Shown here one piece after another: positions 10,570 to 62,049 of a stretch of 64,000 bases of DNA; the stretch's first letter is position 1, and the number at the start of each line of letters is the position of its first letter. The DNA is taken from contig CAJAIA010000001.1 of NCBI GenBank assembly GCA_903939735.1, forward strand, positions 165,169-229,168, read 5' to 3'. The translations under genes were made by a program, and so were the position numbers. The notes under the pieces were generated by a model that was not told the origin of the DNA, searched no databases, and saw nothing but the letters and a program-made list of their open reading frames with translations. Source of the stretch: an uncultured Ignavibacteria bacterium (GTDB taxonomy: Bacteria; Bacteroidota; Ignavibacteria; Kapaibacteriales; Kapaibacteriaceae).

Positions 10570-10881
10570 TTACTTGGTGAGTACGCTTGCGACGGCACTC
10601 TTATCGAACTTCACGTGCGTGTTCGCGGCGATCGTTACTGTGATCGCGGTCTCATCGACTTCGTGCACAGTTCCGTGGATACCACTTGATGTTACAACAG
10701 CGTCACCCTTCTTGATGCCCGAAAGGAGCTTTTGGTGCTCTTTCGCACGCTTCTGTTGCGGACGGATGATCATGAAGTAGAACACGGCGATCACACCACC
10801 GAACATGAGAACGTTCATGATGAGTGGGTCGACGGCGCCTCCGCCTGAGGCTGGGGCTTGGATGAATGCGAGTGCGAGCAT
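10570..10881 (-). CDS. yajC: Preprotein translocase accessory subunit YajC
   Basis: A 103-residue YajC, a single-pass inner-membrane partner of SecDF. The transmembrane helix is at about residues 20-41 ([19 protein letters not shown]) and is followed by the family hallmark [21 protein letters not shown]. The C-terminal part is a small beta domain. The start at 10881 ([10 protein letters not shown]) gives the usual short periplasmic N-terminus. secD and secF are not in the window. It lies between tgt and ribBA, and a tgt-yajC order is common in bacteria. Confidence 0.92.
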
Positions 10882-10912
10882 GTGCGTTTCGGAAAAAGCT
10901 GAAACAAGTATG

Positions 10913-12058
10913 TTATTGACGAGGTGCGTTGAGACGTTCGATTGTCTCTGCTGCCCATTGACGATACGTCCCCTCAAGAATTTTCTCGCGGGCCGTTCGA
11001 ACGAGCCATAAATACAACGCCACGTTTTGGATCGTAGCGAGCATTAACCCGAGGATTTCGCCAGCATGAAACAGGTGACGAAGATACGCCATGCTGTAGT
11101 TCTGACTGCTTTCGGCCCCTACCAGCATGTCAATAGGTTCGTCGGCAGCCTTCCAACGCGCGTTCTTGATGTTCACGCGTCCAGATGTCGTGAACAATGT
11201 GCCATTGCGAGCATTGCGGGTCGGCATCACACAATCGAACATGTCCACGCCAAGGTCGATTGCGCGAAGAATATTCTCTGGCGTACCGACACCCATGAGG
11301 TAGCGAGGTTTGTCCTTGGGCATCACCTCTGTCGAGGCCTGCGTCATGGCATACATATCCTCCGCTGGTTCCCCTACGCTGAGTCCGCCGATGGCGTACC
11401 CTTCAAAGTCCATGTCGACCAGCGCCGACATGCAGGACTGGCGCAGATCGCGATAGACGTTGCCTTGTCCGATACCAAACTGTGCCTGACGATGCCCATA
11501 AAGGAAGGGCGTGGCCAGGTGGTGGACACGTGAGCGCTCTGCCCATCGGAGCGTAAGCTCCATGGATTGCCGCGCCTCGGTGTAGCTGGCAGGGTGCGCG
11601 GTGCATTCATCAAGCACCATCATGATGTCGCTACCAATCGCCCGTTGAATCTCGACGACGCTCTCAGGTGTGAAGATGTGTTTCGACCCATCGATATGCG
11701 AGCGGAACTCGACACCGTCCTCACTCATGGTGCGGAGGTCACGAAGAGAAAACACCTGGAACCCACCGCTGTCAGTCAGGATTGGTCGGTCCCACGTCGA
11801 GAACCGATGGAGACCACCCATCGCGCGGAGCGTCTCGGTACCCGGACGAAGGTAGAGGTGATAGGTGTTACCGAGAATAATCGGTGTATTGAGCTCGCGC
11901 AACGAGCGATGGTCCATGGCCTTTACGGCCCCCTGCGTGCCAACAGGCATAAAGATCGGAGTCGGGATTTCCCCGTGATCCGTCACTAGCCGTCCTGCAC
12001 GAGCGCTTCCATCTGCGTCGGTACATTCGAGGGAAAAGAGCGAAGTTGCGGTACTCAT
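10913..12058 (-). CDS. tgt: tRNA-guanine transglycosylase lacking the zinc ligands
   Basis: 381 residues, normal for bacterial Tgt, which swaps guanine-34 for preQ1 in GUN-anticodon tRNAs. The catalytic core is kept: TDSGGF with Asp96, and the nucleophile region DMFDCVMPTRNARNG with Asp275. In place of the structural zinc site (E. coli C302, C304, C307 and H333), this protein has Val313, Ala315, Ser318 and Gln344. The spacing is identical and the flanking residues (PID and QNYS.AYL, then ATIQN) are conserved, so this is substitution, not a frameshift. queA in the same window shows that the queuosine pathway is used. The start at 12058 is ATG 7 bases after a TACTTTTG box. Confidence 0.93.
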   Translation of the reverse strand: MSTATSLFSLECTDADGSARAGRLVTDHGEIPTPIFMPVGTQGAVKAMDHRSLRELNTPIILGNTYHLYLRPGTETLRAMGGLHRFSTWDRPILTDSGGFQVFSLRDLRTMSEDGVEFRSHIDGSKHIFTPESVVEIQRAIGSDIMMVLDECTAHPASYTEARQSMELTLRWAERSRVHHLATPFLYGHRQAQFGIGQGNVYRDLRQSCMSALVDMDFEGYAIGGLSVGEPAEDMYAMTQASTEVMPKDKPRYLMGVGTPENILRAIDLGVDMFDCVMPTRNARNGTLFTTSGRVNIKNARWKAADEPIDMLVGAESSQNYSMAYLRHLFHAGEILGLMLATIQNVALYLWLVRTAREKILEGTYRQWAAETIERLNAPRQ

Positions 12059-61002: not shown

Positions 61003-62049
61003 TTAGATGATCATCAGGGCATCACCGTAGCCGAAGACACGATAGTCGCTCTTCAGTGCACGCTTGTATGCCTTGAACATCTGATCCTTCCCACCAGCAT
61101 ATGCTGTTGCAACCAGCAGCGACGGCGAGGCCGGTTGGTGGAAGTTTGTGATGAAGCGATTCGCAATCTTGAACTCATACGGCGGGTGGATGAACTTATC
61201 TGTCCAACCCTTGTTTGGCTTCACAATGCCACTCGTGAGAACACTCGATTCGAGTGCACGCACAACACTGCAACCAACGGCATAGACGTTCTTCTTGGAC
61301 TTGAGCGCCTTGTTGATCACATCTGCAGAGTCCTTCGTGATTTCGAAGTACTCGCTGTACATACGGTGCTTTGTTAGATCCTCAACTTCGATCGTTTCGA
61401 AGATGCCCTGACCAATGTTCAGCTGGACCGTTGCAACCTTGATGCCCTTCTTTTCCGCGGCCTTGAGAAGCTTTTCCGAGAAGTGCAAACCAGCTGTCGG
61501 CGGTGCAATCGAGCCCACCTTACCTGGATTTGCAAAGACGCACTGATACGTCTCCTTGTCGGCATCGGTTGGTTCACGCTTGACGTATTCCGGCAGCGGC
61601 ATTTGACCGATGCGCTCAATCACCTCGTGGAGATCCCCATCGTAGGAGAAACGAACGGTACGACCACGTGATGTGGTGTTGTCGATGATCTCGCAGTAGA
61701 AACGGTTATTGTCGAAGTAAATCTTGTTGCCGATGCGCACCTTACGGGCCGGCTCAACAAGAACATCCCAGATGCGCTCTTGAGCCTTGAGCTCGCGAAG
61801 CAGCATCACTTCGATCTTTGCGTTCGTCTTCTCCTTCTTGCCGAAGAGGCGTGCCGGGAACACCTTGGTGTCGTTAACCACGATCACGTCGCCCTTGTCC
61901 ATGTACTGGAGAATGTCCTTGAAGTGCTTGTCTTCAATCTCCCCCGTTTCACGGTTGAGGACCATCATTTTTGAGGATTCGCGGGGATCTGCTGGATACT
62001 TCGCAACAGCGTTTTTCGGGACGGAGAACTTGAACTCAGAGAGCTTCAT
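61003..62049 (-). CDS. queA: S-adenosylmethionine:tRNA ribosyltransferase-isomerase QueA
   Basis: A 348-residue QueA that converts preQ1 in tRNA to epoxyqueuosine, using SAM as ribosyl donor. It has VVNDTKVFPARLFG, APPTAGLHFSEKLL and ITNFHQPASPSLL. It pairs functionally with tgt at 10913. It is unusually Lys-rich for the region, in the style of Bacteroidota QueA (MKLSEFKF start). The start at 62049 follows a perfect TATCTTTG box 30 bases upstream. Confidence 0.96.
   Translation of the reverse strand: MKLSEFKFSVPKNAVAKYPADPRESSKMMVLNRETGEIEDKHFKDILQYMDKGDVIVVNDTKVFPARLFGKKEKTNAKIEVMLLRELKAQERIWDVLVEPARKVRIGNKIYFDNNRFYCEIIDNTTSRGRTVRFSYDGDLHEVIERIGQMPLPEYVKREPTDADKETYQCVFANPGKVGSIAPPTAGLHFSEKLLKAAEKKGIKVATVQLNIGQGIFETIEVEDLTKHRMYSEYFEITKDSADVINKALKSKKNVYAVGCSVVRALESSVLTSGIVKPNKGWTDKFIHPPYEFKIANRFITNFHQPASPSLLVATAYAGGKDQMFKAYKRALKSDYRVFGYGDALMII

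Follow-up and report, generated by a model that had tools for sequence, protein, structure and literature searches.

By the account of Chong (1995), relayed in PMC9508795, the tRNA-guanine transglycosylase (TGT, or Tgt in bacteria) of E. coli is a zinc metalloprotein; the latter paper gives zinc as required for TGT activity, and another names it as a hallmark of TGTs (PMC6165067). A search of the open literature found no report of a zinc-free Tgt and no biochemistry on any Bacteroidota Tgt, the protein considered here included, in keeping with the first-pass annotation of this DNA, to which no zinc-free bacterial Tgt was known as described. The pattern set out below is visible in any alignment, and specialists may know of it informally. 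The best outside evidence on function comes from S. meliloti, whose Q-dependent phenotypes require tgt (SMc01206), a neighbour of queA (SMc01207). The phenotype of the inactivated tgt mutant is not rescued by preQ1, while queC and queF mutants are rescued (PMC3568095), so that tgt is required at a step after preQ1. The Tgt of S. meliloti Ak57 (L197/L217) has S-C-T-N at the four positions of the zinc ligands, and its gene follows a queA-like ORF with which its start overlaps; the Tgt of S. meliloti 1021 is expected to have the same site. The Tgt of Bartonella henselae, which belongs to the same order as S. meliloti, complements E. coli (PMC10723273); the study does not mention zinc.

The window, that is, the whole stretch of 64,000 nucleotides that was analysed, carries one tgt gene, with the following features:

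complement(10913..12058), minus strand: tgt, tRNA-guanine(34) transglycosylase without the zinc site (TIGR00430, PF01702), the sole Tgt in the genome
11771..11773, minus strand: codon 96, the catalytic Asp (Zymomonas D102), retained and invariant in 182 Tgts
11234..11236, minus strand: codon 275, the nucleophile Asp (Zymomonas D280), retained and invariant in 182 Tgts
11105..11122, minus strand: codons 313-318 (V-G-A-E-S-S), at the place of C-x-C-x-x-C in zinc TGTs by the gap-free Zymomonas alignment, the same in relatives
11027..11029, minus strand: codon 344 (CAA, Gln), at the place of the fourth ligand, His, by the alignment and relatives

The reading frame of 381 codons begins with ATG at 12058 and ends with TAA at 10913; the first-pass annotation had the coordinates right and left out the strand. 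Its view that the gene is clearly Tgt is well founded, as the protein scores 475.8 bits over residues 12-378 against the equivalog model TIGR00430 (curated cut-off, 306.75 bits) and 501.6 bits against PF01702, the Pfam TGT model. A second, zinc-type Tgt elsewhere in the genome, which the annotation had raised as a point against its reading, was sought, and no second Tgt of any type was found in this genome, which is rated 100% complete.

The ligands of the Zymomonas enzyme, C318, C320, C323 and H349, align in phmmer with V313, A315, S318 and Q344 of the window protein, with no gaps through the site, so that the replacement of all four at the 2-3-26 spacing is just as first described, and the CxCxxC...H ligand set is absent. 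The pattern of the zinc motif was without a match in the whole genome of the window. Sequencing or assembly error is ruled out as the source, because the cysteine set is likewise missing from all relatives of the same genus and of the same family, which were assembled independently; the concern that relatives might have kept their cysteines is thereby answered. What requires qualification is the idea that the four residues were lost together. All four are missing here, but not as a single event or step, since the His at 344 is often kept in relatives (80 of 125 zinc-less sequences).

The remainder of the active site is that of an ordinary Tgt. Both catalytic aspartates are intact, with the numbering originally given to them, as is D150 (Zymomonas D156), and the catalytic residues are invariant in 125/125 zinc-less sequences. 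The pocket is of the preQ1 type, with C152 and V228 (Zymomonas C158 and V233), and Q198, G224, G225 and M255 are also intact; every catalytic, pocket and arginine position checked either matches zinc-type Tgts exactly or falls within their variation. At the interface of the predicted homodimer most residues are intact; Y325 and H328 are invariant, and L340 is kept.

Two further genes of the window bear on the setting of tgt:

10570..10977, minus strand: yajC, preprotein translocase subunit, directly downstream of tgt (PF02699, E 2.5e-30)
61003..62049, minus strand: queA, S-adenosylmethionine:tRNA ribosyltransferase-isomerase, the next pathway enzyme (TIGR00113, 340 bits; PF02547, E 9.5e-115)

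The start of yajC is uncertain, as its longest ORF overlaps tgt. Operons of the order queA-tgt-yajC-secDF occur in other bacteria; the immediate flanks of tgt in the window hold yajC, ribBA and a peroxiredoxin. QueC, QueF and QueG are encoded elsewhere in the genome, so that the pathway enzymes looked for are all present, in line with the initial suggestion, made from queA, that the pathway is likely used. A second QueA-like gene, separate from the queA of the window, lies near queF in two pieces of one frame (C39:10276-11460 and C39:13606-13932) and looks as if it carries an insert. Incorporation of preQ1 at G34 by the window Tgt is predicted, with genetic support from S. meliloti.

Absence of the zinc motif is no local oddity of this genome; across most of the phylum a zinc-less Tgt is the norm. 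The pattern C-x-C-x2-C-x6-Y-x2-H-x15-H-N was run at the DNA level on 296 Bacteroidota genomes, with the class and order names of genomes known only by code inferred from named relatives. Tgt is present in 291 of these genomes and the zinc motif in 48, leaving 243 of the 291 Tgt-bearing genomes without it, and a reversed control pattern gave no match in the 296. By group, the motif was found in none of 24 genomes of the window's order, in 44/49 from the rest of its class, in all four of family f23, and in 0/219 from the remaining phylum. Sequences that were read directly agree with these counts, and the same-genus and same-family Tgts recovered all lack the cysteine set. The residues that stand at the four positions differ by lineage: G-T-D-H in Flavobacteriaceae, G-S-D-H in Bacteroides and relatives, L-G-S-H in Cytophagia-like, F-N-C-H/Q in Chlorobia-like and F-S-C-H in Balneolia sequences. 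Outside the phylum the motif is kept in E. coli, Magnetococcus, Pusillibacter, Fusobacterium, Paenibacillus, Nocardia, Aeromonas, Paracoccus and Sphingomonas, and is missing from Sinorhizobium, Shinella and Methylobacterium (Hyphomicrobiales; L183, L197, L198 and L199), which have S-C-T/A-N/S.

Several observations were made in the course of this survey. Tgt matches were absent from five nearly complete Bacteroidota genomes, three of one genus in family f44 (G196, G240 and G244) as well as G097 and G320; the three from one genus suggest loss of the queuosine pathway there. One genome of the window's class (G227) has two Tgt matches and two zinc-motif matches, possibly a second TGT-type gene. 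On enterobacterial plasmids (H22, H24-H26 and H28), Tgt-like genes adjoin the 16S rRNA methyltransferase genes rmtD2, rmtE2 and rmtG. Phage and viral collections yielded no phage record above 60% identity and one Tgt on a viral contig, which is of zinc type.

Among 182 non-redundant Tgts, 57 have all four ligands, 125 have none, one or two, and none has exactly three; the site is thus either kept whole or given up. Zinc is likely the ancestral state, because the outgroups carry the motif. On a tree of 96 rows built without the zinc columns, the zinc label requires 6 changes versus 28.7 for shuffled labels; on a bootstrapped tree of 60 rows it requires 7, and a single origin appears in 0/200 bootstrap trees. 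Under the AU test a single loss for all zinc-less Bacteroidota Tgts is rejected (p 0.017), whereas one loss for the main groups (the window's order, Bacteroidia, Rhodothermia, Balneolia and Chlorobia) is not (p 0.31). The Hyphomicrobiales loss is independent of that in Bacteroidota, with Paracoccus and Sphingomonas keeping the ligands. Counting it, losses number at least three, with the best trees giving six or seven. Isolated zinc-less Tgts also occur amid otherwise zinc-type families of the window's own class (L166, L168 and L169, with FSNH, VSSH and TSSH), and these are probably further independent losses.

The zinc-less sequences are not equally free at the four positions. At 344 hardly anything but His or Gln is seen, and at 318 Ser, Asp and Cys predominate, whereas 313 and 315 are more variable; on the tree 313 changes 26 times and 315 changes 33 times, and H/Q at 344 is exchanged about 12 times. 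Of 46 cases of Asp318, 44 also have His344, a pairing much of which is explained by shared ancestry; the tree-aware test had two usable pairs only and little power. An AlphaFold2 model of the window protein, computed with 70 zinc-less relatives, has a mean pLDDT of 92.3, rising to 96-98 over residues 301-360, the former zinc subdomain; a zinc-type control modelled from 27 sequences reached 89.9. The model shows the TGT TIM-barrel fold with its C-terminal subdomain; VIA-align fits it to Zymomonas TGT (1q2r) with Z 54 and 1.6 A over 375 residues. AlphaFold2 tends toward the family fold irrespective of stability. Of the PDB entries inspected as matches by sequence or by fold, none was recognised as the solved structure of a zinc-less Tgt.

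We put at roughly 0.85 the probability that the product of the window gene is a housekeeping Tgt of the ordinary preQ1-inserting kind which needs no structural zinc, the zinc knot having given way to side-chain packing. In other TGTs zinc pins the loop 306-320 to the long helix 335-362; here the loop would be held by side chains in direct contact, which in the window's lineage would mean a hydrophobic residue at 313 and a hydrogen bond between Ser318 and Gln344, with Ser-His or Asp-His in its place elsewhere. Since residues that once shared the zinc ion lie within a few angstroms of one another, a direct 318-344 hydrogen bond together with a hydrophobic 313 is the simplest replacement; the 318-344 contact is proposed from geometry and co-occurrence. 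The former zinc subdomain would still form its part of the homodimer interface, and preQ1 would be exchanged for G34 through the usual covalent mechanism of Asp275. The first-pass suggestion of another stabilising core rather than decay fits the high-confidence model and the constraint on 318 and 344, but the stabilising contacts and the absence of metal, like the activity of the window protein, are what we infer.

Three other accounts were weighed. Zinc, or another metal, might still be bound by different residues in or around the site (for example H328, H331, E316 and D310), only the ligand set having changed, and it is true that Chlorobia- and Balneolia-like Tgts keep C318 with H344 (FNCH, FSCH) and that the D318 and H344 kept in many Bacteroidia might, in principle, give weak metal binding. 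The window protein, however, has four cysteines (12, 152, 209 and 276), none of them near the zinc site and none after 276, with no substitute CxCxxC; its sole histidines beyond residue 285 are H328 and H331, the former the invariant dimer-interface His that zinc TGTs also have; and no new conserved Cys or His that might act as a substitute ligand occurs among the 125 zinc-less sequences. Retention of a metal is therefore judged distinctly unlikely.

Lower still is the likelihood that the zinc subdomain is simply decaying in an enzyme that is inactive, or nearly so, and survives as a relic or in a tRNA-binding role only. Such decay would fit the freedom with which the cysteine positions 313 and 315 vary, and also a same-genus MAG whose tgt reading frame is broken by a stop where residue 125 would be encoded. 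This stop is found in L006 (in G004) and in L032 (in a Kapaibacterium MAG; 80% identity), which look like one sequence, and it is either a MAG error or a mark of a pseudogene. Against decay, tgt is under strong purifying selection, with dN/dS of about 0.03-0.06 within the genus where computable; the catalytic residues are without exception conserved, zinc-less Tgt has been maintained over phylum-scale time, the pathway genes are retained, and the genetics of S. meliloti speak for function (PMC3568095). Just as little credence is given to a change of substrate (queuine salvage, a DpdA-like role on DNA, or another RNA), with zinc loss reflecting the new role. TGT homologues do switch substrate, as the Chlamydia enzyme uses queuine (PMC10723273) and DpdA acts on DNA (PMC12839542), but the pocket of the window Tgt, with Cys152 and the Val228 of GGLSVG, bears the preQ1 signature and not the queuine type, QueF and QueA are encoded, and TIGR00430 is an equivalog model. 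Moreover, yajC directly follows tgt, and no dpd or other DNA-modification defence genes were found in the immediate flanks examined.

An ordinary preQ1-inserting Tgt that works without zinc thus remains the preferred reading for the window. For the family at large, we consider it likely that Tgt can do without its structural zinc and that at least three losses have occurred (in the main lineages of Bacteroidota, in further lineages of the window's class, and in Hyphomicrobiales), a metal-free core serving instead. If this is true, much of the Bacteroidota, the gut Bacteroides included, has zinc-independent queuosine insertion, and if much of the Bacteroidota and the rhizobia make Q without zinc, then links between Q and zinc status, and the annotation of every Tgt as a zinc protein, fail in these groups. 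The repeated choice between keeping the whole site and abandoning it is a natural experiment on the replacement of a buried metal site, and zinc and zinc-free Tgts that share 55-60% identity within one class permit a clean swap. The finding is moderately surprising and readily testable, and it matters chiefly for its breadth.

Set beside described enzymes, the window Tgt has the family fold of human QTRT1/QTRT2, but both human subunits keep the zinc domain (PMC6165067), and the human enzyme is zinc-binding, queuine-specific and heterodimeric. With the Thermotoga maritima TGT (PDB 2ash) it shares the fold at 1.2 A over 360 residues and 46% identity. The Zymomonas mobilis/E. coli TGT (TIGR00430; PDB 1pud/1ozm/10fb) is alike in fold, in the catalytic aspartates, in the preQ1 pocket and in most dimer-interface residues, at 48% identity, and differs in having the four zinc ligands where the window Tgt has V313/A315/S318/Q344. 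A different kind of parallel is provided by zinc economy, in which the Zur-regulated C- ribosomal proteins (RpmE2/RpmJ2) and QueD2 are zinc-independent substitutes. There, too, a ligand-free version stands in for a zinc protein, but these are usually second copies induced by zinc limitation, whereas the zinc-free Tgt is the only copy.
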